DNA of 64,000 bases from Frigoribacterium sp. VKM Ac-2836. Its GTDB lineage: Bacteria > Actinomycetota > Actinomycetes > Actinomycetales > Microbacteriaceae. The stretch is taken from positions 682,001 through 746,000 of the forward strand of contig NZ_JABRPK010000002.1 in NCBI RefSeq assembly GCF_013248995.1. The letters are read 5' to 3'. Position numbers and translations under genes: made by a program. The notes under the pieces are model-generated. The model was not told the origin of the DNA. It saw only the letters and a list, made by a program, of their open reading frames with translations, and did no database searches. Shown piece after piece: positions 3,613-61,427 of the stretch (the first letter of the stretch is position 1; each line of letters begins with the position of its first letter).

Positions 3613-4728
3613 GTGACCGGGCCGACGCGCGAAGGCGGGCTGCGGCGTGGCTGGCACCGCGCCTCCTCGGCGTTCGACCTGCGCGACGCGACGGCGCGGA
3701 CCATCGCCTCCGGCCCGGCCGTCGTCCAGATCGTGCTCGCCGTCGTGGGCGCGTACGCGATCACGCATTACGGTCTCGGGCACGCGATCCCCCTGCTGGC
3801 CGTGACCATCACGATCTCGTCGCTCGGCCTGGCACGCGACGCCCGCCCGCGACGCGTGCTCGAGAACGCGGTGGGCGTCCTGATCGGCATCGCGCTCAGC
3901 GAGGTGTTGCTGATGGTGGTCGGCAAGGGGTTGTGGCAGATCGCCCTCGTCCTCTTCGTCACGCTGTCGGTCGCCCGGTTCTTCTCGCCGAGCAGCGCCT
4001 TCGCCGCCGCGGCCGCGACCCAGTCCATGCTCGTCATGTTGCTGCCGGACCCCGACGGCGGGGCGTTCGTCCGCAGCATCGACGGCGCCGTCGGGGGAGC
4101 CGTGGCGTTGCTCGTCACCGCGATCGTGCCCCGAGATCCGGTCGGGCTGGCCCGGCACGACGCCCGACGCTTGTTCGACGAGGTCGACCGGGCCTTCGCG
4201 TCACTCGTCAGCGCCCTCCGAACCGACGACGCCCCGCGGGCCGATGACGCGCTCGAGCGCCTGCGGTCGACCCAACCGGTGCTCGACGACTGGTCGTCCA
4301 CCCTCGAATCGGCCCAGTCGATCGCCCGCCTGTCGCCGTTCCTGCGGTCCCGGTTGCCCGATCTCGTGCAGCAGGCGGCGGTGCGGCGGTACGTCGACCT
4401 CGCCGTGCGCAACCTGCGCGTCGTCGCGAGGCGGCTCGACACCCAGCTCGGGGACGGTGTCGACCGGTCGGCACTGGCCGACCTGCTCGACTCGACCGCG
4501 CGGGCCGTGGCCGTGCTCGGCAGGTCGGTGCACGACGTCGAGCAGAGGCCGGTCGCGCGCGAGGCGCTCTCGGCCGTCGCCCGTCGCCTCGACCCGACGG
4601 TGGTGCTCCCCGGTGCGCCCGTGACCGAGGCGATGGTCGTGCTGATGATGCGCCCGCTGCTCGTCGACCTGCTGATGGCCACCGGCCTGGACCACGACGA
4701 CGCCAGGGCCCGACTCGCCCGCGTCTGA
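3613..4728 (+). CDS. FUSC-family integral membrane protein
   Basis: 371 residues. The N-terminal ~180 residues form several hydrophobic helices (VVQIVLAVVGAYAITHYGLG, IPLLAVTITISSLGLA, LENAVGVLIGIALSEVLLMVV, AFAAAAATQSMLVMLL, AVGGAVALLVTAIV). The rest is a soluble helical domain. This is the layout of half-size FUSC/aromatic-acid-exporter-like proteins. Substrate unknown. GTG start at 3613, 33 nt after ygfZ, in the same direction, so it may be co-transcribed. A second FUSC protein is encoded at 46885-48012. Confidence 0.75.
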   Translation: MTGPTREGGLRRGWHRASSAFDLRDATARTIASGPAVVQIVLAVVGAYAITHYGLGHAIPLLAVTITISSLGLARDARPRRVLENAVGVLIGIALSEVLLMVVGKGLWQIALVLFVTLSVARFFSPSSAFAAAAATQSMLVMLLPDPDGGAFVRSIDGAVGGAVALLVTAIVPRDPVGLARHDARRLFDEVDRAFASLVSALRTDDAPRADDALERLRSTQPVLDDWSSTLESAQSIARLSPFLRSRLPDLVQQAAVRRYVDLAVRNLRVVARRLDTQLGDGVDRSALADLLDSTARAVAVLGRSVHDVEQRPVAREALSAVARRLDPTVVLPGAPVTEAMVVLMMRPLLVDLLMATGLDHDDARARLARV

Positions 4729-4788
4729 CTTCCGGCACGCCGGCGGCCCGCAGCTCGACAGGTCGTCGCCCCGATGCGACGGCGCGGC

Positions 4789-5565
4789 TCAGTCGCGCGG
4801 CGCGACGGCGGCCCAGGGCAGCGAGAGCTCGCCGAGCCGCCAGCGCGTCCGACCGCCCTGCACGGGCCAGCCGGCCTCGCGCAGTCCCCGCACCGTCGCG
4901 AGCCAGCGCTGCACGGGCCCGTAGACCGACAGCGGTGCGGCGACCGCCCAATGGCGATCGAGGTCGACGATCAGATCGTGCACGCGCTCACCCGGCACGT
5001 TGCGGTGGATGAGGGCCTTGGGCAGCCGCTCGGCCACGACCGACGGCAGCTCGAGACCGGCGAGTCGCAGCGAGATCGTGAACGTCGTGGGCCCCTCGGG
5101 CGTCACGTCGACCCAGCTCGCGACGCGTCCCACCTCGTTGCAGGTGCCCTCGACGAGGACGCCGCCGGGCTGCAGGCGCGCCGTCATCAGTGCCCAGGCC
5201 TCGGCGACCCGGGACTCGTCGTACTGTCGCAGCACGTTGAACGCCCGGATCACCGCCGGTCGCCGGTCGCCGTCGAGCGGCACCTCGAAGCCGCCCCGCC
5301 GGAAGCTCACGCCGGGACGTGCCGAGAGGCTCGCCAGCCGGACGCGCTCGGGCTCGATCTCGATGCCCACGACCTCGACGTCGTCGCGCACCTTCAGGAG
5401 GCGCTGGTGAAGTTCGAGGGGAGTCGTCGCGCTCGCCCCGTACCCCAGGTCGACGACCAGCGGATCGTCCGCGCGCCGGAACGACGGGTGGGCGGCGATC
5501 CAGCGATCGACGCGCCGCAGACGGTTGGTTCCGGTCGTGCCGCGCGTGACGGAACCGATGGGCAT
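4789..5565 (-). CDS. Class I SAM-dependent methyltransferase
   Basis: 258 residues with a Rossmann methyltransferase core: motif [19 protein letters not shown], an acidic ribose-binding segment [17 protein letters not shown], and a motif-IV-like region [12 protein letters not shown]. The C-terminal third ([20 protein letters not shown]) is typical of an uncharacterised actinobacterial family. Substrate unknown. It converges on the FUSC gene and is divergent from gpmA, sharing a 41-bp promoter region. A weak -10-like CAGACT lies 6 nt before the ATG. Confidence 0.8.
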
Positions 5566-5594
5566 GCGCCAAGTCTGCCATCGGGCCGTCGCGA

Positions 5595-5600
5595 TACGCT
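5595..5600 (+). promoter_or_regulatory. -10 box TACGCT of a leaderless gpmA promoter
   Basis: TACGCT ends 6 nt before the gpmA ATG. No Shine-Dalgarno lies between them, so a leaderless transcript is predicted. Confidence 0.5.
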
Positions 5601-5606
5601 GGCGGC

Positions 5607-6359: not shown

Positions 6360-6376
6360 GCGACGCGAAGCGTTGC

Positions 6377-6399
6377 GCGACGCCCGACTCGGGCGTCGC
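6377..6399 (+). terminator. First hairpin downstream of gpmA
   Basis: Perfect 10-bp stem (GCGACGCCCG with its complement) and a 3-nt loop, 17 nt after the gpmA stop. No U-tract. Confidence 0.5.
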
Positions 6400-6409
6400 C
6401 GTGAGGAGT

Positions 6410-6450
6410 ACGAAACCCACACCCGGCGCCGAGCGGGGTGTGGGTTTCGT
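6410..6450. terminator. Bidirectional terminator between gpmA and the kinase gene
   Basis: Perfect 15-bp stem (left arm 6410-6424, right arm 6436-6450) with an 11-nt loop. It lies between convergent genes, with a GTTT stretch inside the right arm. Confidence 0.75.
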
Positions 6451-6455
6451 CGTCC

Positions 6456-6989
6456 TCAGACGAACTTCGCGCTGATCTGCATGACGAGGTCGTCCATGTC
6501 GACGGGCGCGCTCGTGTCGACGCGGATCACGGGCCAGTCACCGAGCGGCTCGGCTGCTCCGGCCCACGTCGGCCAGGCGGCTCGGGCCGATTCGACGGTG
6601 CCGTGCGCCGGGTGCCGGCCGCCGGCCGCGAGCCGGTCGACCACGCGCTGCAGGGCCACCTCGGGGTCCACGTCGCACCACACCTCGACCGTGCGCGGTG
6701 ATCCCGCGCGCTCGACGCCGGCTCGGGCGAACTCGAGGTCGCGCTCCCGGTGCCAGAACGCGTCGACGACCACGCCCGCCTCGACCTCGCCCGCCATCGC
6801 CCAGACGGAGTCCATCGCGATGCCCCCGAGGGCCTGCGGATCGATCATCGGCCCGGCCAGGTCGACCAGCGCCTCCTTGACGGGGTCCTTCGCGAGCAGC
6901 GGGCATCCGAGCACCCCCGCGAGCGTGGCCGAGAGGGTGGTCTTGCCCGATCCGGGCAGACCGTTGACGAGGATCGCGACTGAAGCCAT
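6456..6989 (-). CDS. P-loop AAA-type small kinase
   Basis: 177-residue ATP-binding protein. The Walker A motif LVNGLPGSGKTTLSATLA is at residues 7-24. The pattern after it (GCPLLAKDPVKEALVD, VVVDAFWHRERD, VWCDVDPEVALQRVVDRLAAGGRHPAH) resembles small shikimate-/gluconate-kinase-like or Zeta-like phosphotransferases of unknown substrate. The ATG at 6989 was chosen because the P-loop begins a few residues later, although the frame stays open far upstream. It lies downstream of phoU but is separated from it by a hairpin, so it is probably expressed on its own. Confidence 0.72.
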   Translation of the reverse strand: MASVAILVNGLPGSGKTTLSATLAGVLGCPLLAKDPVKEALVDLAGPMIDPQALGGIAMDSVWAMAGEVEAGVVVDAFWHRERDLEFARAGVERAGSPRTVEVWCDVDPEVALQRVVDRLAAGGRHPAHGTVESARAAWPTWAGAAEPLGDWPVIRVDTSAPVDMDDLVMQISAKFV

Positions 6990-7027
6990 GCCACCATCCT
7001 CGCGGACGGCGGAGGGCCCGACCGAAC

Positions 7028-7070
7028 GCAGGAGGCGCGGTGCCCGTCGAACGGACACCGCGCCTCCTGC
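7028..7070 (-). terminator. phoU terminator made of inverted AGGAGGCGCGG copies
   Basis: Perfect 15-bp stem: left arm 7028-7042, right arm 7056-7070, 13-nt loop. The two arms are the window's recurrent motif AGGAGGCGCGG (7030-7040) and its complement (7058-7068). It lies 15 nt past the phoU stop. Confidence 0.75.
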
Positions 7071-7084
7071 AGGACCTCGGGCGA

Positions 7085-7738
7085 TCAGACCTCGGGTGCC
7101 ACCCAGTCGCCGGTGGCGAGGTACTGGACCTTCTTCGCGATCGAGACCGCGTGGTCGGCGAAGCGCTCGTGGTAGCGCGACGCGAGGGTGGAGTCGACCG
7201 TGTCGACGGCCGCGCCCTTCCAGGTCTCGCCGAGCACCTTGTCGAAGACGCTGAGGTGCAGTTCGTCGATGCGGTCGTCGTCGTTGCGGATCTCTTCGGC
7301 CAGGCGGACGTCTTCGGTGGTCAGCAGCTCGGTGAGTTTCTTGGCGATGGCGACGTCGAGCTCGCCGAGCTCCTTGAAGGTCGGCCGAAGCGACTTCGGC
7401 ACGACCTTCTCGGGGAACCGGTAGCGGGCCAGCTGGGCGATGTGCTCGGCCATGTCGCCCATGCGCTCGAGCGAGGCGCTGATGCGCAGCGCGCTGACCA
7501 CGATGCGCAGGTCGCGGGCGACCGGGTTCTGGCGGGCCAGGATGTCGATGGCCAGCTCGTCGAGCGCGATGGCGCGCTCGTCGATCTTGTCGTCGTCGGC
7601 GATGACCTGCTCGGCCAACGAGACGTTCGACTCGTTGAAGGCCGTGGTCGCGTTCGCGATCGAGACGGCGACGAGGCCGGCGATCTCGACGAGACGCTCC
7701 TGCACCTCCAGGAGTTCCTGCTGGAATACCTCGCGCAT
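7085..7738 (-). CDS. phoU: Phosphate transport system regulator PhoU
   Basis: 217 residues with the two three-helix PhoU repeats: LVEIAGLVAVSIANATTAF with ALDELAIDILARQNPVARDLR (residues ~15-75), and a second copy with RNDDDRIDELH and YHERFADHAVSIAKKVQYLATG (residues ~125-210). PhoU links the Pst transporter to the phosphate-sensing kinase and represses the pho response when phosphate is plentiful. The gene is divergent from the histidine kinase gene at 7978, with a PHO box between them. The ATG at 7738 follows the universal MREVFQQEL opening. Confidence 0.94.
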   Translation of the reverse strand: MREVFQQELLEVQERLVEIAGLVAVSIANATTAFNESNVSLAEQVIADDDKIDERAIALDELAIDILARQNPVARDLRIVVSALRISASLERMGDMAEHIAQLARYRFPEKVVPKSLRPTFKELGELDVAIAKKLTELLTTEDVRLAEEIRNDDDRIDELHLSVFDKVLGETWKGAAVDTVDSTLASRYHERFADHAVSIAKKVQYLATGDWVAPEV

Positions 7739-7876
7739 GTCGTGTTCGACCCTCTCGTCGTGGGGGCTCGGTGGCCCTGGGAGCACGGTGGCTGTGAGCG
7801 ACGTGCGGGACGCACGTTCGGCTCGTGACGTGGGGGCAGAGTCGCCCGCACAGTCCCGACGATGCTCTCCGGTGAA

Positions 7877-7905: not shown

Positions 7906-7964
7906 TCTGACCAAAGTACAGCGGATGCGGCGGCCTCCCGTTCATCGACCTGCTGGGGTGTCAC

Positions 7965-9913: not shown

Positions 9914-9924
9914 AGGAGGCGCGG
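9914..9924 (+). repeat. Single copy of the AGGAGGCGCGG motif
   Basis: Intergenic copy between regX3 and its terminator hairpin. Confidence 0.6.
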
Positions 9925-13916: not shown

Positions 13917-13920
<4 letters not shown>

Positions 13921-14963
13921 AGAACACCAGCGGAGCACGCAAGGGCCGTCCCGGCAGCAGTGCCGTGCGTCAGGGCAGCAAGGGCAAACAGGTCGGCAGC
14001 GGCGGGCAGGGTCGCCAGGCGCTCGAGGGCAAGAAGCCCACTCCCGCCGCAGAAGACCGCCCGTACCACCCCGCGGGCAAGGCCAAGGCGGCCCGTGAGC
14101 GGCTCGAGGCGGCGCGTGGTCGTGGCGGGTCCGGCCCCCGGGCCGGGTCGCCGATCGCCGGCCGCGGTGGGCCGGACGCACCCCGCCGCCGCCCGAAGTC
14201 GGCCGACGACCACGAGATGGTCACCGGTCGCAACTCGGTGGTCGAGGCCCTGCGGACGCGCATCCCGGCGACGACCCTCTACATCGCCGCGCGCATCGAG
14301 ATGGACGAGCGCACCAAAGAGATCCTGCAGCTCGCCACCCGTCGGGGCCTGCCGATCCTCGAGGTCATGCGTCCCGAGCTCGACCGCATCACCGGCCACG
14401 ACTCGGTGCACCAGGGCGTCGCGCTCAAGGTGCCGCCGTACGAGTACGCGCACCCCGTCGACATGCTCGAGGCCGCGATCAAACGCCAGCAGAAGCCGCT
14501 CTTCGTGGCCCTCGACGGCATCACCGACCCGCGCAACCTCGGGGCGATCATCCGGTCCGTCGCCGCGTTCGGCGGGCAGGGCGTCATCGTCCCGCAGCGT
14601 CGGTCGGTGGGCCTGACGGCATCGGCCTGGAAGACCTCGGCCGGTGCCGCGGCGCGCATCCCGGTCGCCATGGCTTCGAACCTGACGCAGACCCTCAAGT
14701 CGTTCAAAGAGCAGGGCGTGTTCGTCGTGGGCCTCGACGGTGACGGCGACGTCATGCTGCCCGGTCTCGAACTCGCCGACCGCCCGATCGTCGTCGTCGT
14801 CGGCAGCGAGGGCAAGGGACTGTCGCGCATCGTCGCCGAGACCTGCGACGCCATCGTGTCGGTGCCGATCACCGGTGCCGTCGAGTCGCTCAACGCCGGC
14901 ATCGCCGCATCGGTCACGCTCTACGAGATCTCGAAGCTGCGCGCCGAGCGCAAGAAGAAGTAG
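13917..14963 (+). CDS. rlmB: SpoU-family 23S rRNA 2'-O-methyltransferase
   Basis: 348 residues. The first ~95 are a basic Gly/Lys/Arg-rich extension (KNTSGARKGRPGSS and similar). The SpoU substrate-binding domain starts at MVTGRNSVVEALRTRIPATT. The knotted methyltransferase domain has the three motifs: DGITDPRNLGAIIRSVAAFG, VVGSEGKGLSRI and PITGAVESLNAGIAASVTLYE. It methylates a ribose in 23S rRNA (G2251-type). GTG start overlaps the cysS stop by 4 nt, so the two are translationally coupled. Confidence 0.92.
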
Positions 14964-14992: not shown

Positions 14993-15031
14993 AGGAGGCG
15001 CGGGTCGGCTAATTGCCGACCCGCGCCTCCT
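14993..15031 (+). terminator. rlmB terminator built from the AGGAGGCGCGG motif
   Basis: Perfect 17-bp stem (14993-15009 and 15015-15031) with the 5-nt loop TAATT, 30 nt after the rlmB stop. It is an inverted pair of the recurrent motif extended by GTCGGC. Confidence 0.8.
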
Positions 15032-16622: not shown

Positions 16623-16633
16623 AGGAGGCGCGG
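16623..16633 (-). repeat. Single copy of CCGCGCCTCCT (minus strand)
   Basis: Intergenic copy between ugpC and the DUF4032 gene, downstream of the hairpin. Confidence 0.6.
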
Positions 16634-20950: not shown

Positions 20951-20991
20951 CAGGAGGCGCGGTGCGAGGACCTCTCGCACCGCGCCTCCTG
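20951..20991 (+). terminator. Terminator with 18-bp perfect stem (motif pair)
   Basis: Arms 20951-20968 and 20974-20991, loop GACCT. The outer 11 bp of each arm are AGGAGGCGCGG and its complement. It lies 27 nt past the stop of the AI-2E-type gene. Confidence 0.82.
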
Positions 20992-21150: not shown

Positions 21151-23115
21151 TTGTCGCAGACCACGACCGCCGCGGGCACGAAGCCTGCGGCACCCCACGA
21201 ACCGGGCGAGGCGCCCGGCATGAGCCACCGCGAAGTCCTCACGGCCCTGTCGGGTCTGCTGATGGGCATGCTCGTGGCGATCCTCTCGTCGACCGTCGTG
21301 TCGACCTCGCTGCCGCGCATCGTGAGCGACCTCAACGGCAGCCAGACCTCGTACACCTGGGTCATCACCGCGACCCTGCTGGCCACGACGGTCAGCACCC
21401 CGCTCTGGGGCAAGTTCAGCGACCTGACGAACCGCAAGGTGCTGCTGCAGGTGGCGCTCGTGCTGTTCGTGCTCGCCTCGGTCGCCGCCGGTTTCTCGCA
21501 GAACACCGCCACGCTGATCACCTTCCGCGTCTTCCAGGGCCTCGGTGCCGGTGGCCTCACCGCCCTCGTGCAGGTCGTCATGAGCGACATCATCAGCCCG
21601 CGTGAGCGCGGCCGGTACATGGGCTACCTCGGCGCTGTGATGAGCGTCGGCACCATCGGCGGCCCGCTGCTCGGCGGCGTCCTCACCGACTCGATCGGCT
21701 GGCGCTGGAACTTCTTCGTCGGCGTGCCCGTCGGCGTCGCGGCGCTCATCGTCATCCAGCGCACGCTGCACCTGCCCCCCAAGCCCAAGAAGGCCGTCGT
21801 CGTCGACTACTGGGGCGCCGGGCTGATCGCCGGTGGCGTCTCGCTGCTGCTCGTCTGGGTGTCGCTCGGCGGAAAGCAGTTCGAGTGGGCCTCGACCACC
21901 AGCTGGCTGATGGGCGTCGGCGCGGCCGTGCTGCTCGCGCTGGCCGTCGTCGTGGAGTTCCGCTCGAAGGAGCCGATCATCCCCCTCACGTTGTTCAAGA
22001 ACCGCACCTTCACCTTCGCGGTGATCGCCTCGCTCAGCGTCGGCGTCGCGATGTTCGGCACCAGCGTGTTCCTCGGTCAGTACATGCAGCTGGCCCGCGG
22101 CCAGTCGCCGACCATGGCGGGCATCCTGACCCTGCCGATGGTGCTCGGGCTGCTCATCTCGTCGATGGTGGCCGGCGCGCTCATCTCGAAGTACGGCAAG
22201 TGGAAGCCCTACATGATCGTCGGGTCGATCCTGCTCGCCGCGGGGCTCTTCCTCATGTCGACCATCGAGTACGACACGAACTTCGCCATCGTCTCGGTCT
22301 TCATGGCCATGATGGGTCTCGGCATCGGCATGGTGATGCAGAACCTCGTACTCGTCGTGCAGAACTCGGTCGACGTCAGCGTCGTGGGTGCGGCCTCGTC
22401 GAGCGTCGCGTTCTTCCGCAGCCTCGGCGGCACCATCGGCGTCTCGGTCATGGGCGCCGTGCTCGGCACCAAGGTCTCCGGCTACATCACCGACGGCCTG
22501 ACCGACGCGGGTGTCGACCCCAGCGCTCTCGGCAGCGGCGGCTCGACGAGCATCCCCGACCTCAGCACCGTGCCCGGCCCGATCCGGACCATCATCGAGT
22601 CGGCCTACGGGCAGGGCGTCGCCGACGTGTTCCTCATCGCGGCCCCGCTCGCGCTGATCACCATCGTGTTCGTCTGCCTGCTGCCGAACGTCGAGCTCGG
22701 CACCAAGACCGGCATCCAGCGGGCAGCGGCGACGACGGACGGTCCTGCGGCCGGTTCGGCGGCGGCGACGACCTCCGAGGACAGCGAAGGAGGCGCGGCT
22801 CCCGTCGACGCGAACGCCTCGTCCCCGGCCGCCAAGGGAGCCGCCGCGACCGCCGGCCTGGCACCTGCGGTGTCCAGCGCTCCGGCGACGCGGTCCACGC
22901 CGGCCCCGGTCTCGCCCATCGACGAGGGTGGGGACGTCGCCGACCTGCAGCACCGTCACCACAGCCACACGACGACTCCCACCGGTACCATCGACACGAT
23001 CATCGCGACGGGCGCCGCCGAGGTGGCGGGTCACCCGGTGCCCGCCGACGAACTGGCCGAGAGCCCGGTGTTCTCGTCCCTGGTCGAGGAGAAAGATGTC
23101 GCAGCCGACCGTTGA
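21151..23115 (+). CDS. MFS multidrug exporter, DHA2 (14-TM) family
   Basis: 654 residues. The core has about 14 hydrophobic helices. Motif A-like GKFSDLTNRKVLLQ is in loop 2-3, motif C-like GAVMSVGTIGGPLLGGVLTD is in helix 5, and RVFQGLGAGGLTALVQ is in helix 4. This is the EmrB/QacA drug:H+ antiporter layout. The cytoplasmic tail (residues ~530-654) is unusually long and Ala/Ser/Thr-rich with a HRHHSHTT patch. The TTG start at 21151 has GGAGCG upstream; no ATG or GTG fits before the first helix except 21220 (ATGAGCCAC). The marR gene overlaps its 3' end by 20 nt. Confidence 0.88.
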   Translation: MSQTTTAAGTKPAAPHEPGEAPGMSHREVLTALSGLLMGMLVAILSSTVVSTSLPRIVSDLNGSQTSYTWVITATLLATTVSTPLWGKFSDLTNRKVLLQVALVLFVLASVAAGFSQNTATLITFRVFQGLGAGGLTALVQVVMSDIISPRERGRYMGYLGAVMSVGTIGGPLLGGVLTDSIGWRWNFFVGVPVGVAALIVIQRTLHLPPKPKKAVVVDYWGAGLIAGGVSLLLVWVSLGGKQFEWASTTSWLMGVGAAVLLALAVVVEFRSKEPIIPLTLFKNRTFTFAVIASLSVGVAMFGTSVFLGQYMQLARGQSPTMAGILTLPMVLGLLISSMVAGALISKYGKWKPYMIVGSILLAAGLFLMSTIEYDTNFAIVSVFMAMMGLGIGMVMQNLVLVVQNSVDVSVVGAASSSVAFFRSLGGTIGVSVMGAVLGTKVSGYITDGLTDAGVDPSALGSGGSTSIPDLSTVPGPIRTIIESAYGQGVADVFLIAAPLALITIVFVCLLPNVELGTKTGIQRAAATTDGPAAGSAAATTSEDSEGGAAPVDANASSPAAKGAAATAGLAPAVSSAPATRSTPAPVSPIDEGGDVADLQHRHHSHTTTPTGTIDTIIATGAAEVAGHPVPADELAESPVFSSLVEEKDVAADR

Positions 23116-24932: not shown

Positions 24933-24943
24933 AGGAGGCGCGG
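24933..24943 (-). repeat. CCGCGCCTCCT motif 1 nt past the ROK stop
   Basis: Minus-strand copy beginning within 2 nt of the ROK kinase stop codon. Confidence 0.6.
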
Positions 24944-26896: not shown

Positions 26897-26907
26897 CCGC
26901 GCCTCCT
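26897..26907 (+). repeat. CCGCGCCTCCT motif after pfkB-type gene
   Basis: Coding-strand copy 21 nt after the stop of the PfkB kinase gene. Confidence 0.55.
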
Positions 26908-28144: not shown

Positions 28145-28155
28145 AGGAGGCGCGG
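28145..28155 (-). repeat. CCGCGCCTCCT motif after the metallopeptidase gene
   Basis: Minus-strand copy about 13 nt after the stop of the metallopeptidase gene. Confidence 0.55.
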
Positions 28156-34116: not shown

Positions 34117-34127
34117 CCGCGCCTCCT
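34117..34127 (+). repeat. CCGCGCCTCCT motif directly after the tetR stop
   Basis: The motif begins at the base following TGA (34114-34116). Confidence 0.62.
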
Positions 34128-37690: not shown

Positions 37691-37701
37691 AGGAGGCGCG
37701 G
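37691..37701 (+). repeat. Single AGGAGGCGCGG copy upstream of putA
   Basis: Intergenic copy about 60 bp before the putA start, with no start codon near it, so it is not a ribosome site. Confidence 0.55.
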
Positions 37702-42325: not shown

Positions 42326-45060
42326 GGGCGGCGCATCCGGCCGCCGGACAACACCGACGTCGCCCACGCGGCGAGGCCGGTGCGGTCGATCTTGCTGTTG
42401 TGTCGTACGTCGGTCGGCAGCTGCGGCACCACGAGCACGGCGGCCACCGGTCGGCCCGACGCCGTGGCCACGGCCGAGCGGACCGAGGCCGCCAGGGCCG
42501 CGGACGCCAGCCCCGGGCGACGAGCCGGGGGGACGGTCTCGGCGACGACGACGACCTGCTGCGTGCCGGCCGGGCCGACGCCGACGACGGCGGCCCGGGC
42601 GATGCCGGCCCGCGCCTCCACGGCTTGTTCGGACGCCACGGGCGTCAGCACACCCGTCGCGGTCGTGATCACGTGGGGCAGGCGGCCCTCGACCCAGAGG
42701 CGGCCCTGCGCGTCGAGGTGACCGACGTCGCCGGTGCGATGCCAGCGCGTCTCGTTCGTCGAGCCGAGGCGGCTGGCGCGGTGCGTCAGCCAGAGACGGT
42801 CGTAGTGGTCCTCGACGTGCGACGCCGAGACGACGATCTCGCCGGTCACCCCCGCGTCGTCGGTGAACGCCGAGGAGGCGCGGCCCGCGTCGTCCAGAGG
42901 AGCGATCCGCACCGTCGTGGTCGCGCCGGGCAGCCCCACGCAGACGCCGCCCGCGTCGGGCGCACCCGCGGCGACGGCGGCGTCGCGGTCGGCCGTCGCG
43001 GCGCGGACGCCGTCGAGCGTGACGTCGGTCATCAGCAGGCCCTCGGTCATGCCGTAGGGCGTGTGGGGCGTGGCGTTCGGCATCAGGTCGCCGGCCGCGG
43101 CCAGCAACGACTCGGAGACCGGCGCGCCCGCCGACAGGAAGGTCTCGACGCCCGACAGCGCGCGGTGGTCGGCGTCGCCGAGTTCGTCGGACGTGGCGAC
43201 GACGTTGGTCAGCGCAGCGGGGGAGAGGAACACCACGGTGGCGTCGACCGCGGCCGTGGCCGCCGCGACGGCGCGGGCGGTCAGGGTGCGGGGCTTCGTG
43301 ACGTCCATGTCGGGAGTGACGCTCGTCGCACCGAGGGCCGGCCCGAGCAGGGCGAACGGCGCGAAGCCGGCGACCAGGCCGGTCCCGGGACCGACGCCGT
43401 ACTGCGTGGCCAGGGCGTCACGCAGGGCGGTCAGCTGGCCGTGGCGGTAGACGACACCCTTGGCGGGGCCCGTCGAGCCCGAGGTGAAGAGGATCGTGGC
43501 CTCGGCGTCCGCCGTGGGGGCGTCGGGCAGTTCGGCGAGGGCCTCGTGCGCGCGGCGGCCCAGGGCGGCGATCTCGGGCAGCGACGCCTCGACGCCGAGG
43601 GCTCGGGCGGTGATCGGCGACAACGTCGTGGTCGAGATCTTGCGGCCGGGCCATCCGAGGGCGGTCGCGGCCGTGAGCCCGGGCAGCTGGCCGATCACGT
43701 GGTCGGGCCAGGCTCCCCGGACGGCGCGGGTCAGGCCGCGCACCCCGAGACCGGCGTCGGCCACGACCACGATCGCACCGATGCGGACGCAGGCGTAGAG
43801 CACGGCGGTCAGGTCGGCGCCGGGCTGCACGAGCAGGGACACGCGGTCTCCGGGGTGCACGCCGTGCTTGCGCAGGCCGAGGGCGATCTCGCGCACGCGG
43901 CGGGCCAGCAGACTCCAGCTGACCGAACGGGGGCCGTCGGCACCCGCGGGGGCCATCTCGACCAGTGCCGTGGCCGGGCTGTCAGCCAGGGACTCGAGGT
44001 ACGACCAGAGCGGGCGGTCCTGCCCGGAGGCGTCTCGCGCCTCCTCGGTGCCGGGCGCGTCGGTGGCGACCGCGCCCTCCGGGAGTCGGTCGCCCAGCCA
44101 GCTGAGCACGGCCCCGGCGTAGTCGACGTCCTCGGCGACGAGGTGGCCCGCGCCCTCGAAGCGGTGCACGTCGGCATGCGGCAGGCGGTCGACCAGGTCG
44201 TCGAGGTACCGGTCGGAGAAGATCGGGTCGCGGGGCCCCCAGAGCATCAGGGCCGGCACGGTGAGTTCGCGCAACCCCGCGGCGATCCGGTCGAGTTCGG
44301 GGCTGCTGACGTGCTCGGCGTCGACCGGGATGTCGGCCACGAAGCCGCCGATGCCGCCGCGACGGTCGGCCTGGCGGTACGGGGCACGGAACCCGGCTTT
44401 CACCTCGGGCGAGAGTGCGGGGTGGGCGAGGCCCAGGGTCACGTCGAGGAAGCCGGTCGTGCCGACGGTCGCCCGGCCCAGCACACCGCGGGCGAGGGTG
44501 AGGCGGAGGGGTGCCGGGATCGTCTCGCCTTCGGGCTGATGGATCGCGGTGTTGAGGAGCACGAGACCGGCGAGCTGGTCGGGGTGGTCGACCGCCCAGC
44601 CCATCGAGACGACGCCGCCCCAGTCGTGGCCGAGGGTGACGACGGGTCCGGTGATCTCGAGGGAGGAGGTCAGATCGCCCAGGTCGGCGACGCGGCGGGC
44701 CAGCGTCTGCGGGGACCCGGTGCGTTCGGAGAAGCCCATGTCGAGCTGGTCGACGGCGACGACGCGCCAGGCGGGGCCTCCGGCGGCGGCCGCCTCGATC
44801 GTGCGGGCGACGAGGCGGCGCCAGAGGTACGACCAGGTCGGGTTGCCGTGCACGCACAGGATGGTGCCCACGGGTTCGGCGCCTAGGGCCGTCAGGGCGT
44901 CGCCGTTGTCGAGGACGTGCCAGGTGCGGGAGGCGCGGTGCACGCCGAGACCGTACGGCACGTCGACGAGACGAGACCACGACGGGTCGAGCCCGTCGAG
45001 ACCCGCGGGGGGACGTGACGCCGGCGCCGTGGCGGAGGCGGACCGCGGGAGCCGACTCAC
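42322..45060 (-). CDS. oleBC: OleBC fusion: beta-lactone decarboxylase + beta-lactone synthetase
   Basis: 912 residues, two enzymes in one chain. Residues ~30-325 are OleB, a haloalkane-dehalogenase-like alpha/beta hydrolase: oxyanion LCVHGNPTWSYLWRRL, nucleophile Asp in LGHDWGGVV (about residue 146) and catalytic His in EGAGHLVAED (about 305). Residues ~350-912 are OleC, an AMP-forming ligase-like enzyme: ILFTSGSTGPAKGVVYRHGQ (about 523-542), YGMTEGLL, HRTGDVGHLDAQGRLWVEGR and the C-terminal Lys region NSKIDRTGLAAW. OleC closes the beta-hydroxy acid to a beta-lactone and OleB removes CO2, giving a cis-alkene. The fusion is known in other actinobacteria (e.g. Micrococcus). GTG start overlaps the oleA stop by 3 nt. 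Confidence 0.92.
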   Translation of the reverse strand: MSRLPRSASATAPASRPPAGLDGLDPSWSRLVDVPYGLGVHRASRTWHVLDNGDALTALGAEPVGTILCVHGNPTWSYLWRRLVARTIEAAAAGGPAWRVVAVDQLDMGFSERTGSPQTLARRVADLGDLTSSLEITGPVVTLGHDWGGVVSMGWAVDHPDQLAGLVLLNTAIHQPEGETIPAPLRLTLARGVLGRATVGTTGFLDVTLGLAHPALSPEVKAGFRAPYRQADRRGGIGGFVADIPVDAEHVSSPELDRIAAGLRELTVPALMLWGPRDPIFSDRYLDDLVDRLPHADVHRFEGAGHLVAEDVDYAGAVLSWLGDRLPEGAVATDAPGTEEARDASGQDRPLWSYLESLADSPATALVEMAPAGADGPRSVSWSLLARRVREIALGLRKHGVHPGDRVSLLVQPGADLTAVLYACVRIGAIVVVADAGLGVRGLTRAVRGAWPDHVIGQLPGLTAATALGWPGRKISTTTLSPITARALGVEASLPEIAALGRRAHEALAELPDAPTADAEATILFTSGSTGPAKGVVYRHGQLTALRDALATQYGVGPGTGLVAGFAPFALLGPALGATSVTPDMDVTKPRTLTARAVAAATAAVDATVVFLSPAALTNVVATSDELGDADHRALSGVETFLSAGAPVSESLLAAAGDLMPNATPHTPYGMTEGLLMTDVTLDGVRAATADRDAAVAAGAPDAGGVCVGLPGATTTVRIAPLDDAGRASSAFTDDAGVTGEIVVSASHVEDHYDRLWLTHRASRLGSTNETRWHRTGDVGHLDAQGRLWVEGRLPHVITTATGVLTPVASEQAVEARAGIARAAVVGVGPAGTQQVVVVAETVPPARRPGLASAALAASVRSAVATASGRPVAAVLVVPQLPTDVRHNSKIDRTGLAAWATSVLSGGRMRRP

Positions 45061-50081: not shown

Positions 50082-51062
50082 GTGAGCACCTCCGACCGGT
50101 TCCTGGCCGCGGCCCTCGCCTTCGATCGTGAGGAGTCGCCCTCGCAGGCCGAGCTCGCGCGGGGCATCGCCCTCGATCCGACGGCGCTCGCCGTCCTCGA
50201 TCGGGCCGAGGAGGCGCGGCGCCAGCCCGTCCTCGTCCTCGCGGTCTGTCGGTGGCTGGGTGCGCCGCTCGGGCCCTGGTCGGCGCTGCGGCCCTGGCTG
50301 CTCGCCCGCTCCGACGACGTCGTGGCCGAACTCGCCCGCCGACTCACCCAGACCAACGACGTGAGACGGTGCGCCCCGCTCTCGGTCGCCCTGGCCCGGG
50401 TGCCGGGCCCGGTGGCCCTGCTCGAGGTCGGGGCCTCTGCCGGCCTCTGCCTCATGGTGGACCGGTACGGCTACCGCTCGGGCGACCGGAGGTGGGGCGA
50501 CCCGTCGAGCCCGGTGCAGCTCGCGCTCGACGTCCACTCCCCGAGCGGGGGCCGAGCTCCGAAGACACCAGAGCTGCCGACGGGGCCGTTGCCCGAGGTC
50601 GTCTGGCGTGCAGGGATCGATCTCGACCCGGTCGACGTCCGCGACCGCGACCAGGTGGCGTGGCTCGAGACGCTGCTGCCGCCGGAGCGTGGTGACCGGC
50701 TCGAGCTGCTGGGTCGAGCCGTCGCGCTCGCCCGCACCGCGCCTCCTCGGCTGGTCGGAGCGGACGCCGTCGACGGTCTCGCCGCCCTCGCGGCGGAGGC
50801 TCCGGCGGACGCGACCCTGGTCGTCGTCTCGACCGGCACGCTCGTCTACCTGCCGGGTCGGCGCCGCCAGGCGTTCGTCGACGAGGTCGGCCGACTCGGG
50901 GCGCGGTGGATCTCGTACGAACGTCGTGACCTGCTGACGGACGTGGTCGCCGAGGTGCCGCCGGGAGCGCGTCCCGACGACGCGTTCGCCGCCCTCGCCC
51001 TCGACGGGCAGGCGCTCGGCGTGGGGGACGCACACGGGACGCGTCTGCATCTCACGGCGTGA
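50082..51062 (+). CDS. DUF2332 family protein
   Basis: 326 residues, mostly helical. Landmarks ALAVLDRAEEARRQPVLVLA, RPWLLARSDDVVAELARR and the central VALLEVGASAGLCLMVDRYG (a Gly-rich loop resembling a methyltransferase motif I) match the actinobacterial DUF2332 family. It may be an SAM-dependent enzyme by this loop, but that is inference. GTG start at 50082. The C-terminal segment LVVVSTGTLVYLPGRRRQAF fits the family end region. Confidence 0.82.
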   Translation: MSTSDRFLAAALAFDREESPSQAELARGIALDPTALAVLDRAEEARRQPVLVLAVCRWLGAPLGPWSALRPWLLARSDDVVAELARRLTQTNDVRRCAPLSVALARVPGPVALLEVGASAGLCLMVDRYGYRSGDRRWGDPSSPVQLALDVHSPSGGRAPKTPELPTGPLPEVVWRAGIDLDPVDVRDRDQVAWLETLLPPERGDRLELLGRAVALARTAPPRLVGADAVDGLAALAAEAPADATLVVVSTGTLVYLPGRRRQAFVDEVGRLGARWISYERRDLLTDVVAEVPPGARPDDAFAALALDGQALGVGDAHGTRLHLTA

Positions 51063-57275: not shown

Positions 57276-57839
57276 TCAGGCCGTCGGGTCGGACCACTCC
57301 ACGTTCGGCACGAGTGCGACGCGTGTCGTGAGCTCGAGCAGCTCGTCGGGCACCGCCAGGGTGAAGTCGACGCCCTCGCGGCGCTCGAGCACCGCGGTGT
57401 AGCCCGAGGCGCGGGTGATCTGCCACCCCGGGAACTCCTCGACCGACGCGGCGACCACCCGGGCCTCGGAGGCGTCGTCGGTGGCACCGATGGCGGTGAG
57501 ACCGGCGAAGAGGTGGTCCTTGACGGGCGACCCGGCGAGCAGGTCGCTGCGTTCGATGACCTCGGGGTCAGGGCTCCACGTGACGATGCTGAGGGTCGCC
57601 CCCGCGTGCAGGCCGCCCTGCACCTCGTAGGTACGGGCGACCGACACGACCACCGAGGGGTCCCACTCGGCGAACCGGGCGCTCTGGCCGCGGAACTCCA
57701 TGGCGTCGTGGTCGAGCGAGGCGACGAGTGGTCCGAAGGTCGCGAACGGGGCCTGGTCGGCGGCGAACACCCGACGCAGGCTGTCGCGCCAGAGCTCGTC
57801 GTCGCCCAGCGGCAGGTCGGCGCCTTGCTCGTCGCTCAC
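57276..57839 (-). CDS. Unknown protein coupled to the XPB helicase gene
   Basis: 187 residues, acidic, with no motif I recognise. It looks like a soluble mixed alpha/beta protein (PFATFGPLVASLDHDAMEFR, WDPSVVVSVARTYEVQGGLH, VSVARTYEV). GTG start at 57839 overlaps the helicase stop by 4 nt, so it is co-translated and may act with it. No signal peptide or membrane span. The function is open. Confidence 0.65.
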   Translation of the reverse strand: MSDEQGADLPLGDDELWRDSLRRVFAADQAPFATFGPLVASLDHDAMEFRGQSARFAEWDPSVVVSVARTYEVQGGLHAGATLSIVTWSPDPEVIERSDLLAGSPVKDHLFAGLTAIGATDDASEARVVAASVEEFPGWQITRASGYTAVLERREGVDFTLAVPDELLELTTRVALVPNVEWSDPTA

Positions 57840-59470
57840 GCGGCGACCACCGGGGAGTCGAGGATCGTGTAGCTGTAGCCCTGTTCGGCCAGAAAACGCT
57901 GGCGATTCTGGGCGAAGTCCTGGTCGACCGTGTCGCGGCTGACGAGCGTGTAGAACGAGGCCGGGAGGCCGGACTTCTTCGGCCGCAGCAGGCGCCCGAG
58001 CCGTTGTGCCTCTTCTTGGCGCGACCCGTACGAACCACTGACCTGGATCGCGACCGTCGCCTCGGGCAGGTCGACCGAGAAGTTGGCCACCTTCGAGACG
58101 ACGAGCACCTTCAGGTCGCCGTCGCGGAACCGTTGGTAGAGCCGTTCACGTTCGTCGACGGGCGTGCTGCCGGTGAGCGTCGGGGCATCGAGCACCGCGG
58201 CGAGCTCGTCGAGCTGGTCGAGGTACTGGCCGATGACGAGGATCTGCTCGCCGTCGTGCCGGGCCACGAGGTGCTTGACGACGTCGAGCTTCGCCGGAGC
58301 CGTCGCGGCCATCCGGTACCGCTCGTCGTCGGGGGATGCCGCGTACTCGAGCCGCGCCTCCTGGGGCAGGTCGACCCGCACCTCGTAGCAGTTGGCCGGA
58401 GAGATGAACCCCTGGGCCTCGATCTCCTTCCACGGGGCGTCGAAGCGCTTCGGGCCGATGAGGCTGAAGACGTCGCTCTCGCGACCGTCCTCGCGCACGA
58501 GCGTCGCGGTGAGGCCGAGGCGGCGGCGGGCCTGCAACTCGGCGGTCAGCTTGAAGACCGGTGCGGGCAGGAGGTGCACCTCGTCGTAGACCACCAGGCC
58601 CCAGTCGAGCGCGTCCAGCAGCGAGAGGTGGGTGTACTTGCCCCCGCGGCGGGCCGTGAGGATCTGGTAGGTCGCGATGGTGACCGGCTTGACCTCTTTG
58701 ACGGAGCCCGAGTACTCGCCGATCTCGTCCTCGGTGAGCGACGTGCGCTTGAGCAGCTCGTCACGCCATTGCCGCGCCGAGACCGTGTTGGTGACGAGGA
58801 TGAGCGTGGTGGTGCCGGCAGCCGCCATGGCCCCGGCGCCGACCAGCGTCTTGCCGGCACCGCAGGGGAGGACGACCACGCCGGAGCCGCCTTCGAAGAA
58901 GTTGTCGATCGCCTTCTGCTGGTAGTCGCGCAGGTGCCAGTCGCTCTCGTCGAGGTCGATGGCGTGCGGGGTGCCGGGCGTGTAACCGGCGTGGTCCTCG
59001 GCGGGCCAGCCGAGCTTGACGAGCTGCTGCTTGACCTCTCCGCGAGCCCAGGGCAGGAGCTCCCACAGGTCGTCCGCCCGCTTGACGCCGAGCAGCTCGC
59101 CGACCTTCTTGGCACGGGTCACCTCGCTCAGCACCGAGCTGTCGGTGCCGCGCAGCAACAACTGGTCGCCGTCGCGCTCGATGACGATGCGGCCGTAGCG
59201 CGCGACCGTCTCGGCGATGTCGACGCTGACGCTCTGCGGCACCGGGAACTTGCTGTACTTCTCGAGGGTGCCGAGCATGTCGTCGGCGGTGTGCCCGGCC
59301 GCCCGGGCGTTCCACAACCCGAGGCGGGTGATGCGGTAGGTGTGCACGTGCTCGGGGGCGCGCTCGAGCTCGGCGAAGACGCTGAGGTCGTGTCGTGCGT
59401 CCTCGGCCTGCTCGTGGGCTACCTCGAGCAGGACGGTGCGATCGCTCTGCACGATCAGGGGTCCGGTCAT
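57836..59470 (-). CDS. XPB/ERCC3-type DNA repair helicase
   Basis: 544 residues, superfamily 2 DNA helicase. N-terminal ~170 residues carry the XPB-like damage-recognition region. Walker A VLPCGAGKTLVGAGAMAAAG, DExH box LVVYDEVHLLPAP, motif III LGLTATLVREDGRESDVF, motif V/VI SGSYGSRQEEAQRLGRLLRP. Actinobacterial XPB unwinds 3'-5' and acts in DNA repair. ATG at 59470 with -10 TAGACT 8 nt before it. Upstream lies the helicase-associated protein, as in mycobacteria (Rv0861c/Rv0862c). Confidence 0.93.
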   Translation of the reverse strand: MTGPLIVQSDRTVLLEVAHEQAEDARHDLSVFAELERAPEHVHTYRITRLGLWNARAAGHTADDMLGTLEKYSKFPVPQSVSVDIAETVARYGRIVIERDGDQLLLRGTDSSVLSEVTRAKKVGELLGVKRADDLWELLPWARGEVKQQLVKLGWPAEDHAGYTPGTPHAIDLDESDWHLRDYQQKAIDNFFEGGSGVVVLPCGAGKTLVGAGAMAAAGTTTLILVTNTVSARQWRDELLKRTSLTEDEIGEYSGSVKEVKPVTIATYQILTARRGGKYTHLSLLDALDWGLVVYDEVHLLPAPVFKLTAELQARRRLGLTATLVREDGRESDVFSLIGPKRFDAPWKEIEAQGFISPANCYEVRVDLPQEARLEYAASPDDERYRMAATAPAKLDVVKHLVARHDGEQILVIGQYLDQLDELAAVLDAPTLTGSTPVDERERLYQRFRDGDLKVLVVSKVANFSVDLPEATVAIQVSGSYGSRQEEAQRLGRLLRPKKSGLPASFYTLVSRDTVDQDFAQNRQRFLAEQGYSYTILDSPVVAA

Positions 59471-59478
59471 GAGGGACG

Positions 59479-59484
59479 AGTCTA
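59479..59484 (-). promoter_or_regulatory. -10 box TAGACT of the XPB gene
   Basis: TAGACT on the minus strand ends 8 nt before the XPB ATG. Confidence 0.45.
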
Positions 59485-59486
59485 GG

Positions 59487-59496
59487 CGCGCCTCCT
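59487..59496 (-). repeat. AGGAGGCGCG motif upstream of the XPB gene
   Basis: Minus-strand copy in the 97-bp gap; a plus-strand GGAGGCGCG follows at 59535, making a widely spaced inverted pair. Confidence 0.5.
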
Positions 59497-59567
59497 GCTG
59501 CCTCTCACAGCCGCGCACCGGCCGTCGCGGACGGGGAGGCGCGGGTCGGCGGTGCGGGCCGCCCGCC

Positions 59568-61427
59568 TCAGTCGCGGCTCGCGACCGCCACCACGTTCTT
59601 CAGCGGCAACGTGCGTTCGACGTCCGACTTCTTGTCGCGCCCGCGGACGCGTCCGCCGCCGATGCCCGTGGGCTCCATGTCGAGGGTGGTCGTGCTGCCG
59701 TCGGGCATCGCGACGGTCACCGTGACCGTCAACCTGCCCTTCACGGCGGCGTCCAATTGGCGCGCGATCCAGGCGCGGTCGGTCGACTCGTCACCGGAAC
59801 CGTCGGAGCTGTGCAGCCGCCGGACGAGTTCGCGCAGCGGGTCGCGCGTCTCGACCGGGGCCGGCCGCCGCGGTCGGCGACGGGACGGTGGGACGACCTC
59901 GGTGCCGTCCCCGTCGACGACGACGACGGGGTACCGCTCGTCGGTGAGCGACCAGAAGACGGTGTCGCGTTCGAACCGGCTCGCGACGGTCGTCGCGTCG
60001 ACCCGGGTCAGGGCGAGCGGTGAGAGCGACTGGTCGACCTCGAGGGTGTCCAGGCTCGAGGGGTCGTCGGCGACGACGATCGACAACGCGTCGCCCGGGA
60101 CGCCGGCCGGGGCGAGGCCCGGCACCACGGCGCTCACGCGGTAGCGGCCGTGCCGCTCGGCGCTCTGCTGGATCAGGTAGTCGAGCGGCTGGGGGATGCC
60201 CGTCGACGAGATGCCGCCGAGGAACTCGCGCAGCGTCTCGGCGGTCTCGCCCTCGCTCAGGGCACGTTGCAATCCGCCCTCGGTGATGCGGTAGGTGGCC
60301 GCCAGGCCCGCGCTCTCGACCACCGCGATGACACGGAGTCGGGCGTCGATGGCCGGCGAGAGGGGGCCCGGCGACACGACGCTGAGGTCGTGCTGCAGGT
60401 AGACCTGCTCGACGGCCTCCGGCAGCAGGGCGGCGACGCGGGTGCGGGCGGCCGCGGGCCCCTCGCGGAACAGGGCGACGGCGGCCGAGGTGGGCGTGTC
60501 GTCCGAGGTCAGCCCCAGCACCTCGGCGCTGCGCGAGAACGCGGCGATGCGCTCGGTGATCCAGCTGCCCCCGGCCGGGTACGACCAGTCGGAGAACTCG
60601 CGCAGCGGCAGCCCCCACGACGTGTCGACGCGTTGCTCGAGCACCGTGAGGATCTCGGTCGGCAACGAGCCCAGCCAGGCCCGTGTCAGCGTCTGCCACC
60701 GGTCGGGCCAGGAGGCGCGGAGCCAGTCGGTCGCGTCGGTGGCCACCACCCAACCGTCGGGGCTCGGGGTGGCCAACCCGGCCCGAACGGCGATGGCGAG
60801 CACCGTCGGCACGTCGTCGACGTCGATGCGGGCGGCCTCGGCGAGTCGCCTCGTCTCGGGCAGGGCCAGGCCGCCCTTCGCGAGTTCGCGGGCCGGCGAC
60901 TGCTCGAGGGCCCGGAGGATCTCGGCCACCTCGATGACCACGGCGTACAGCCGTTCGGCCGAGCGGGCGTCGGCGTCGTCGCGGGCCTGGTCCAGGACGG
61001 TCTCGAGAACGACCGGCGGACGTTCGGAGGTCAGCACCTCGAGGGCCAGGGCGGGATCGTCGTCGAGCCGCTCGCCCACGGCGTCGAGGGTCGCGACGGA
61101 GTCGCCGCGACGAACGACGAGGAACGCCTCGTCGACGCGATCGAGCGCGGCCGCCACCGTCTCGCGGTCGACCTCGAAGGCGGCCTGGATGCGCTCGTGC
61201 ACGGCCTCGACGTCGCCCGGCACCCGGACGACCTGGAGGACGATCAGCGCGATGCGGTCGAGGTGGGCGAGGGCGTCGCGCACGCTGGCGGGCTCGAGCA
61301 GGACGTCCGCGAGGTCGAACGCGTCGTGGACGCTCGCCGCCCGGACCTGCCGTCGCGCGAGGCGCCGCAGGAGGTCGTCGTCGCCGATGGCCCGCAGGAC
61401 GCCCGCGAGGTCGAGTGCACTAGCCAT
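59568..61427 (-). CDS. Helicase-associated (XPB/Ssl2-like) domain protein
   Basis: 619 residues, homologous in type to mycobacterial Rv0862c. The N-terminal half is helical with winged-helix-like repeats (ALAHLDRIALIVLQVVRVPG, ERLYAVVIEVAEILRALEQ). The C-terminal half contains the Helicase_C_3/XPB-Ssl2 N-terminal-like domain (DALSIVVADDPSSLDTLEVD and ERDTVFWSLTDERYPVVVVD). No ATPase motifs. Probably a structural or regulatory partner of the XPB helicase encoded just downstream. The last ~100 residues (LDAAVKGRLTVTVTVAMPDG, GGGRVRGRDKKSDVERTLPL) form a WYL-like beta domain. Confidence 0.85.
   Translation of the reverse strand: MASALDLAGVLRAIGDDDLLRRLARRQVRAASVHDAFDLADVLLEPASVRDALAHLDRIALIVLQVVRVPGDVEAVHERIQAAFEVDRETVAAALDRVDEAFLVVRRGDSVATLDAVGERLDDDPALALEVLTSERPPVVLETVLDQARDDADARSAERLYAVVIEVAEILRALEQSPARELAKGGLALPETRRLAEAARIDVDDVPTVLAIAVRAGLATPSPDGWVVATDATDWLRASWPDRWQTLTRAWLGSLPTEILTVLEQRVDTSWGLPLREFSDWSYPAGGSWITERIAAFSRSAEVLGLTSDDTPTSAAVALFREGPAAARTRVAALLPEAVEQVYLQHDLSVVSPGPLSPAIDARLRVIAVVESAGLAATYRITEGGLQRALSEGETAETLREFLGGISSTGIPQPLDYLIQQSAERHGRYRVSAVVPGLAPAGVPGDALSIVVADDPSSLDTLEVDQSLSPLALTRVDATTVASRFERDTVFWSLTDERYPVVVVDGDGTEVVPPSRRRPRRPAPVETRDPLRELVRRLHSSDGSGDESTDRAWIARQLDAAVKGRLTVTVTVAMPDGSTTTLDMEPTGIGGGRVRGRDKKSDVERTLPLKNVVAVASRD

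Follow-up and report, generated by a model that had tools for sequence, protein, structure and literature searches.

The window examined here is a stretch of 64,000 nucleotides from the genome of Frigoribacterium sp. VKM Ac-2836, a member of the Microbacteriaceae (contig NZ_JABRPK010000002.1, positions 682,001 to 746,000). Scattered through it are 21 copies of an 11-nucleotide word, AGGAGGCGCGG, counted on both strands, compared to 0.22 expected from dinucleotide shuffles, while the 10-mer form of the word is seen 32 times compared to 0.88 expected. According to gene calls from an in-house caller, whose starts are approximate, genes contain 8 of the 21 copies, and the remaining 13 are intergenic (Table 1). 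Six of them form three perfect inverted pairs, each making a 39-bp hairpin located 17–30 nt past a stop codon. These counts agree with a sequence-only reading of the same DNA, which had reported about 20 copies of the 11-mer and about 30 of the 10-mer. Several of the coordinates given there are off by 1–2 bases, while its assignment of copies to genes or to the spaces between them is right for 13 of 13 places.

Table 1. Copies of AGGAGGCGCGG in the window, numbered from its first letter
Feature	Position	Strand	Location and properties
copy	3327..3337	+	in gene 2350-3579 (+)
copy	3657..3667	-	in gene 3613-4728 (+)
inverted pair	7030..7068	7030-7040 +, 7058-7068 -	hairpin; RNA fold -42.6 kcal/mol, z -6.9; 17 nt past stop of gene 7085-7738 (-), ahead of gene 6456-6989 (-)
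copy	9914..9924	+	intergenic
inverted pair	14993..15031	14993-15003 +, 15021-15031 -	hairpin; RNA fold -54.3 kcal/mol, z -9.9; 30 nt past stop of gene 13917-14963 (+)
copy	16623..16633	+	intergenic
inverted pair	20952..20990	20952-20962 +, 20980-20990 -	hairpin; RNA fold -45.8 kcal/mol, z -6.7; 28 nt past stop of gene 19791-20924 (+)
copy	22788..22798	+	in gene 21220-23115 (+)
copy	24933..24943	+	intergenic
copy	26897..26907	-	intergenic
copy	28145..28155	+	intergenic
copy	34117..34127	-	intergenic, directly past stop of gene 33424-34116 (+)
copy	37691..37701	+	intergenic
copy	42873..42883	+	in gene 42322-44961 (-)
copy	50209..50219	+	in gene 50082-51062 (+)
copy	50737..50747	-	in gene 50082-51062 (+)
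copy	58352..58362	-	in XPB-type helicase gene 57836-59470 (-) (Pfam)
copy	60710..60720	+	in gene 59568-61427 (-)

The abundance of the word extends to the whole genome, as the sequence-only reading had proposed. Among the 3,273,901 bases of the host assembly (10 contigs), AGGAGGCGCGG occurs 921 times, 458 times forward and 463 times reverse, while a control word made by reversing its letters occurs 7 times (1 forward and 6 reverse). In 464 kb of the host genome, 111 copies are seen where Markov models of orders 0–4 predict 0.8–1.7. Models of higher order predict 3.7 (order 5), 16 (order 6), 52 (order 7), and 91 (order 8). The predictions climb at orders 6–8 because the words of such models are pieces of the motif itself, so that the signal being tested sits inside the model. 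The sequence-only reading had stated that the signal would be refuted if a Markov model of order 5–7, or the codon usage of the genome, accounted for the count. Even at these orders the observed number exceeds the prediction by factors of 30, 7, and 2.

Placement of the copies relative to genes was assessed in 864 kb of the host genome, which comprises 40 sampled stretches of 20 kb together with the window and contains 807 called genes at a coding fraction of 0.868. This set holds 233 exact copies, of which 130 are in genes, 101 are intergenic, and 2 overlap gene ends. Synonymous shuffling of codons within genes leaves only 10.0 of the 130 in-gene copies (standard deviation 3.2, maximum 16, 100 shuffles), and codon usage thus does not predict them. 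Between genes, 100 copies are seen compared to 0.3–0.5 expected. Genes carry 0.17 copies per kb, and intergenic DNA, at 0.89 per kb, is about five-fold denser. In-gene copies are mostly single. Those in the sense orientation use two reading frames (34 and 24 copies), with none of the 58 in the frame that reads AGG AGG, and antisense copies are divided among the frames as 43, 18, and 11. The sequence-only reading had also ruled out a ribosome-site role for most copies, and this is borne out, as only 4 of the 233 exact copies have a called start codon 3–13 nt after the AGGAGG.

Intergenic copies favor the ends of genes. The nearest gene end is a stop codon for 72 of 100 intergenic copies, compared to 44% by chance. 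An inverted partner, defined as a copy with at most two mismatches within 60 bases downstream, accompanies 30 of 103 intergenic copies (control 7.3) and 14 of 130 in-gene copies (control 3.7). A run of T residues (at least four in the next 15 bases), which would be expected of an intrinsic terminator, follows none of the 17 hairpins examined among those listed. Copies are occasionally arranged in tandem as well. Between convergent genes at L102:10876-10922, three copies of the 11-mer follow one another with 18-bp spacing, and a similar array at L001, containing GGGAGGCGCGG, aligns to L002:3508.

The sequence profile of the signal consists of a strict core and a weaker tail. At core positions 2–9 (GGAGGCGC), 65 forms with one mismatch (42.7 by chance) stand beside the 233 perfect copies, while mismatches at positions 1, 10, and 11 are found in 243 forms compared to 15 by chance. 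Positions 12–18 form a weak 3′ tail, g T C g. G T. This tail is alike in 107 in-gene single copies and in 64 intergenic single copies, and it is therefore the sequence, and not the hairpin alone, that is kept.

Along the genome the copies show no preferred orientation. The 40 stretches of 20 kb contain 105 forward and 107 reverse copies, and orientation is correlated neither with GC skew, which was taken as a proxy for the replication strand (rho 0.08, p 0.62), nor with gene strand (rho 0.06, p 0.70). The number of copies per stretch is over-dispersed (mean 5.3, variance 10.3), and copy density climbs with GC content (rho 0.54, p 0.0004). Copies are missing from only 2 of the 40 stretches. The seven genes scanned in the first of these, C1:600001-620000 (GC 0.634), include dprA as well as genes for phage capsid and tape-measure proteins, and the listing of forward-strand copies on contig C1 has a gap from 595402 to 639021.

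Within the family, AGGAGGCGCGG is a mark of the single genus Frigoribacterium. All 16 Frigoribacterium genomes contain it, in 383–1239 copies compared to 4–27 for the controls. Among 299 Microbacteriaceae genomes, the 292 that belong to 84 other genera hold 0–78 copies, near the level of their respective controls. Only one of these 292 (G069) clearly departs from this, with 78 copies compared to a control of 27. In 40 kb of this genome (L155-L156), the words CCAGCGCCTCC and GCGCCTCCCCG are each found 5 times, compared to 0.23 and 0.36 expected, and they are perhaps another relative of the Frigoribacterium element. At the locus of the XPB-type helicase, the word is found in 7 of 7 Frigoribacterium (54 copies), with 0–1 copy in each of 73 other loci. 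The helicase encoded in the window, taken over 57836-59518, is 98–99% identical to those of Frigoribacterium sp. Leaf8 and MEB024.

Single-base dialects of the word exist between Frigoribacterium and Curtobacterium, in which an uptake role is putative. In the 864 kb of the host genome, the first base is A in 233 copies, C in 56, G in 47, and T in 9. In 400 kb of F. endophyticum these numbers are 46, 45, 59, and 5, and in 400 kb of Curtobacterium pusillum they are 1, 4, 16, and 47, where chance would give 0.6–1.7 each. The T-first word TGGAGGCGCGG thus occurs 47 times in the C. pusillum sequence, compared to a single copy of the A-first AGGAGGCGCGG. The wider C. pusillum word is about G[CA]CTGGAGGC[GA]CGG. 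Its form ending in [GA]C is found 21 times in genes (3.3 after shuffling) and 57 times in 44 kb of intergenic DNA. Frondihabitans is nearer to Frigoribacterium by helicase identity (92%) than Curtobacterium is (75–78%), and Curtobacterium is therefore termed a related genus here and not a sister.

Hairpins built on a shared stem, GGAGGCNCGG, are found in all four named Frigoribacterium genomes (30–76 per genome) and in all nine Curtobacterium genomes (27–205). Only 1 of 25 other named genomes, an Agromyces, contains such a hairpin, and it contains just one; reversed-letter controls give 0–2. The Curtobacterium hairpins of two genomes (G331 and G338) have length classes of 32, 37, 41, and 48 nt among those listed. 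These hairpins have recurrent inner sequences (e.g., TGCCAGCTGGCA and TGCGGGCCCGCA) and are longer than an uptake-like word needs. The motif hairpin also occurs in three stretches from viral-collection contigs (L185, L186, and L187), in 2–3 copies each. These stretches may belong to host chromosomes, or flank proviruses, of bacteria similar to Frigoribacterium.

Change of copies between species was followed at the helicase locus in eight Frigoribacterium sequences, for which 293 of 406 site-pairs could be mapped; these pairs are not independent of one another. Of the 167 in-gene pairs, 68 are kept, 93 differ without gaps, and 6 differ with gaps. The gap-free in-gene changes comprise 26, 18, 16, and 33 cases with 1, 2, 3, and at least 4 substitutions, respectively. 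Among 126 intergenic pairs, 56 are kept, 28 differ without gaps, and 42 differ with gaps. In-gene copies thus mostly arise and disappear in place, while the intergenic data do not discriminate. Since 93 of 99 in-gene changes are gap-free, the pattern fits a signal under continuing selection or drive and not an inserted element.

The host genome encodes the components of a type IV pilus and of competence. A pilus operon lies between genes read by eye as rpoC and rpsL. It encodes PilB (MshEN and T2SSE), a PilT-like ATPase, and PilC. Its pilins are one that carries the N-methylation motif, a minor pilin resembling PilV (TIGR02523, below cut-off), and a second minor pilin with an N_methyl match just below cut-off. 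The protein in the PilX position has 580 residues and no family match. The remainder of the operon encodes a prepilin peptidase (PilD), PilM, and PilO, together with a protein in the PilN position that has no match. ComEA (above the TIGR00426 cut-off) and ComEC (above the PF03772 cut-off) are encoded together elsewhere in the genome, and DprA adjoins the prophage genes of C1:600001-620000. PilM is found in all seven Frigoribacterium genomes of the family draw, in three of the four named Frigoribacterium genomes, and in all nine Curtobacterium genomes; two genomes are present in both PilM sets (G001/G309 and G012/G311), as judged by identical PilM places. In one open frame of 1156 residues (L129:8797-12267), ComEC (206-754) is joined to the delta subunit of DNA polymerase III (HolA; 840-1149). 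The frame has 1241 amino acids without stops and represents either a fusion or two genes that share a frame.

A third ATPase of the same family is encoded at C1:389125 and may be part of a Flp/Tad pilus. In Micrococcus luteus, a Flp pilus serves transformation (PMC6370729), and the pilus assignment in Frigoribacterium is therefore not unique. Natural transformation has been described in two freshwater Microbacteriaceae, Rhodoluna lacicola and Aurantimicrobium photophilum (PMC11577799). In a paper on a Frigoribacterium species (PMC12823222), the terms competence, type IV, pilus, and uptake do not appear.

AGGAGGCGCGG is not the only abundant word in the Microbacteriaceae. A second word, CGGATGCCGCG, is widespread in the family and reaches 199–2180 copies in named genomes of Agromyces, Leifsonia sp. 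Root4, Humibacter, and Cryobacterium (e.g., 2180 in Agromyces allii and 581 in Leifsonia sp. Root4), compared to 4–26 for controls and 8–25 copies of the word in Frigoribacterium and Curtobacterium. At nine Agromyces loci, 50 of 58 copies are in genes, mostly single, with no intergenic enrichment. When a PilB-grade ATPase is defined by an E-value below 1e-100, at least 100 copies of CGGATGCCGCG are found in 73 of 146 genomes with such an ATPase and in 36 of 153 without. Among genomes of at least 2.5 Mb (227 of 299), these numbers are 71 of 135 and 34 of 92 (odds ratio 1.9, p 0.02, kinship uncorrected). A rule that presence of the pilus entails presence of the word thus receives weak support at most for CGGATGCCGCG, as several rich genomes have no pilus. 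Of four named Agromyces genomes that were tested, three gave no PilM match. Therefore, presence of a pilus is no general predictor of such words.

A blind k-mer scan of 40 kb from each of 27 other-genus genomes (G019, G057, and G064 were excluded since their first contig was too short) returned similar-looking words. These are CGGATGCGGTG in G063 (L183-L184), GGATGCGGT in G036 (L143-L144), GCGCATCCG in G041 (L179-L180), GGATCCTGC in G061 (L151-L152), and CGGATCCGC in G049 (L181-L182), and they are possibly dialects of one family-wide signal of GGATGC type. In G022 (L169-L170), the 11-mer GCGCAGCGTGG occurs 7 times in 40 kb compared to 0.09 expected. Several of the 27 genomes (e.g., G017, G024, and G088) have no outstanding word in their 40 kb.

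Taken together, these features suggest that AGGAGGCGCGG is probably the core of a Frigoribacterium DNA uptake sequence, which would be an independent functional counterpart of two known tags, the DNA uptake sequence (DUS) of Neisseriaceae and the uptake signal sequence (USS) of Pasteurellaceae. We infer that a pilin binds the motif, that the motif biases uptake, that Frigoribacterium is transformable, and that the hairpins terminate transcription. In the proposed mechanism, a DNA-binding minor pilin encoded in the rpoC–rpsL pilus operon would bind the 11-mer and its weak 3′ tail on DNA shed by kin, and retraction of the pilus would carry this DNA to ComEA and ComEC. One strand would then enter, DprA would load RecA, and the fragment would recombine. 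Fragments bearing the word would be favored, and the word would accumulate and be kept at tolerant sites, such as gene ends, spacers, and permissive reading frames. Inverted pairs between genes also form hairpins that may end transcription.

Several observations weigh against this reading. Three minor pilins were compared by sequence with solved structures, and no DNA-binding pilin was matched; one of them gave weak pilin matches to 6xxe (E 0.022) and to 8qqj PilA5 (E 0.027). F. faeni NBRC 103066 (G310) has no PilM match though its helicase locus (L005) is dense in the motif, which reflects either a lost pilus or an assembly gap. The Curtobacterium element is mostly intergenic and largely made of hairpins, a form that looks more like a terminator or a repeat and is the strongest point in favor of such readings. 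It is also less enriched in genes, as in C. pusillum a looser version, NGGAGGCRCGG, is found 24 times in genes compared to 11.6 (maximum 20), and the longer dialect word 21 times compared to 3.3. Moreover, Frondihabitans is without the word at the helicase locus and without the GGAGGCNCGG hairpin in its genome, and the spread is therefore patchy, which slightly lowers confidence in the uptake reading; because of this genus, the expectation from DUS that dialects follow phylogeny does not hold cleanly in Frigoribacterium. Conservation of the motif columns exceeds that of the flanking columns only moderately (16% different compared to 24%), in a comparison biased toward the motif because the query copy is perfect. 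The second stretch with no copies, C1:1000001-1020000, has ordinary chromosomal genes (2-oxoacid dehydrogenase acyltransferase, aminopeptidase, and gyrase B among the three scanned), and zero copies alone are therefore no mark of a prophage. Finally, several genomes lacking PilM or a PilB-grade ATPase are rich in CGGATGCCGCG. Either a different pilus serves CGGATGCCGCG as an uptake word or the abundant words of this family have another cause, and in the latter case confidence in an uptake role of AGGAGGCGCGG would drop.

Other explanations account for parts of these data. Base composition, codon usage, or the ribosome-binding AGGAGG alone could be considered since AGGAGG is part of the word and the GC content of the window is 71%, but the synonymous shuffle, the few copies at ribosome-site distance, and the near-control counts in other Microbacteriaceae genera refute this, leaving it a negligible probability. 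Transcription terminators that share a stem sequence by chance would fit the preference of intergenic copies for stop codons and the strong hairpins of the three window pairs. This explanation is nevertheless very improbable, as 130 of 233 copies are in genes, where single copies are not hairpins, a partner accompanies no more than 30 of 103 intergenic copies (control 7.3), and termination needs no shared word; termination as the only role is thus rejected. The binding site of a chromosomal protein (a nucleoid, segregation, or DNA-repair factor) that organizes the genome would fit the genome-wide spread and the absence from the prophage-bearing stretch, and single-base dialects could follow changes in such a protein. 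Chi and the FtsK orienting polar sequences (KOPS) are octamers that are over-represented genome-wide and oriented with replication. The Frigoribacterium word resembles them as a short word over-represented across the genome, and differs from them in that its orientation is unbiased and unrelated to GC skew. It is present on all but two sampled stretches and is thus not confined to one part of the chromosome, and a binding site offers no obvious reason for placement at gene ends or for inverted pairs. Such a site is rather unlikely on this evidence. The sequence-only reading had named an uptake sequence, a nucleoid or segregation site, and a recombination hot spot as candidates. The first fits nearly all measurements, while a segregation signal or a Chi-like hot spot is disfavored because of the lack of orientation bias, the intergenic enrichment, the inverted pairs, and the single-base dialects.

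The repetitive extragenic palindromic (REP) sequences of Pseudomonas and enterobacteria, and the doublets termed REPINs, are short words in intergenic inverted pairs. A selfish repeat of this kind, in which short palindromes are copied by a transposase and worn single copies are left scattered, shares with the Frigoribacterium word the intergenic inverted pairs with short loops. It would also fit the related hairpins of all nine Curtobacterium genomes, which are mostly intergenic in the loci read, and the gaps seen in 42 of 70 mapped intergenic changes between species. However, a REP-associated tyrosine transposase (RAYT; PF01797, Y1_Tnp) is found in 0 of 16 Frigoribacterium genomes at E-values up to 0.001, in a search that is positive in 5 of 14 controls. 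The copies are not almost wholly extragenic, since more than half are in genes and most of these are single, and in-gene changes mostly leave no insertion footprint. In addition, only 65 forms have a core mismatch (42.7 by chance), and worn copies are thus few beside the 233 perfect ones. A REP- or REPIN-like origin is therefore improbable.

An uptake sequence in Frigoribacterium would have broader meaning. To our knowledge, uptake tags for self-recognition are known from two bacterial families only. Among the matches listed in the open-licence literature, judged by titles and the starts of abstracts and with preprints outside the search, there is no description of uptake sequences in Actinobacteria or of AGGAGGCGCGG. 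The word belongs to neither known family of tags, DUS or USS, as the words are unrelated and the lineages are far apart. With less assurance than the uptake role itself, we lean toward a third independent origin of sequence-tagged uptake, which would be without precedent outside Proteobacteria or in a Gram-positive bacterium, with single-base dialects between the related genera Frigoribacterium and Curtobacterium and possibly a wider family of GGATGC-type signals throughout the Microbacteriaceae. If so, tagged bacterial sex evolves repeatedly and does not require an outer membrane. Such a system would also offer an independent route to finding a receptor, and its natural single-base dialects would allow a test of the long-argued question of whether uptake bias or selection for kin DNA drives such tags.

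The DUS literature describes a 10–12 nt word in Neisseriaceae with very many copies, many of them in genes, and uptake through type IV pili (PMC3630211, PMC2397512). The features given for DUS and USS together are dialects in step with phylogeny, inverted pairs associated with terminators, sufficiency of one copy, enrichment at permissive sites, a lack of copies in recently acquired genes, and an unbiased orientation (PMC3630211, PMC2397512, PMC2346458). Most of these agree with the measurements in Frigoribacterium. The Frigoribacterium word resembles DUS, as so described, in copy number, dialects, inverted pairs, many in-gene copies, and association with type IV pili. It differs in the word itself, in phylum, and in the lack of an outer membrane, and no ComP homologue was identified. 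Many new DUS arise by recombination and not by point mutation, according to PMC2397512. In Frigoribacterium, 60 of the 93 gap-free in-gene changes have 1–3 substitutions and 33 have more, which does not settle the origin of its copies.

The likeness to USS is similar. In Haemophilus influenzae, about 65% of USS copies are in open reading frames in a genome that is about 86% coding, and there is no general orientation bias (PMC2346458). The Frigoribacterium word is 56% in genes where 87% of the sequence is coding, and it too has no orientation bias. The extended USS (eUSS) of Pasteurellaceae spans 17 nt and consists of a core with weaker extended positions, and its receptor is only predicted (ComN/PpdA; PMC12616744). 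The Frigoribacterium word is likewise composed of a core and a weaker tail, while its sequence and its lineage are unlike those of USS.

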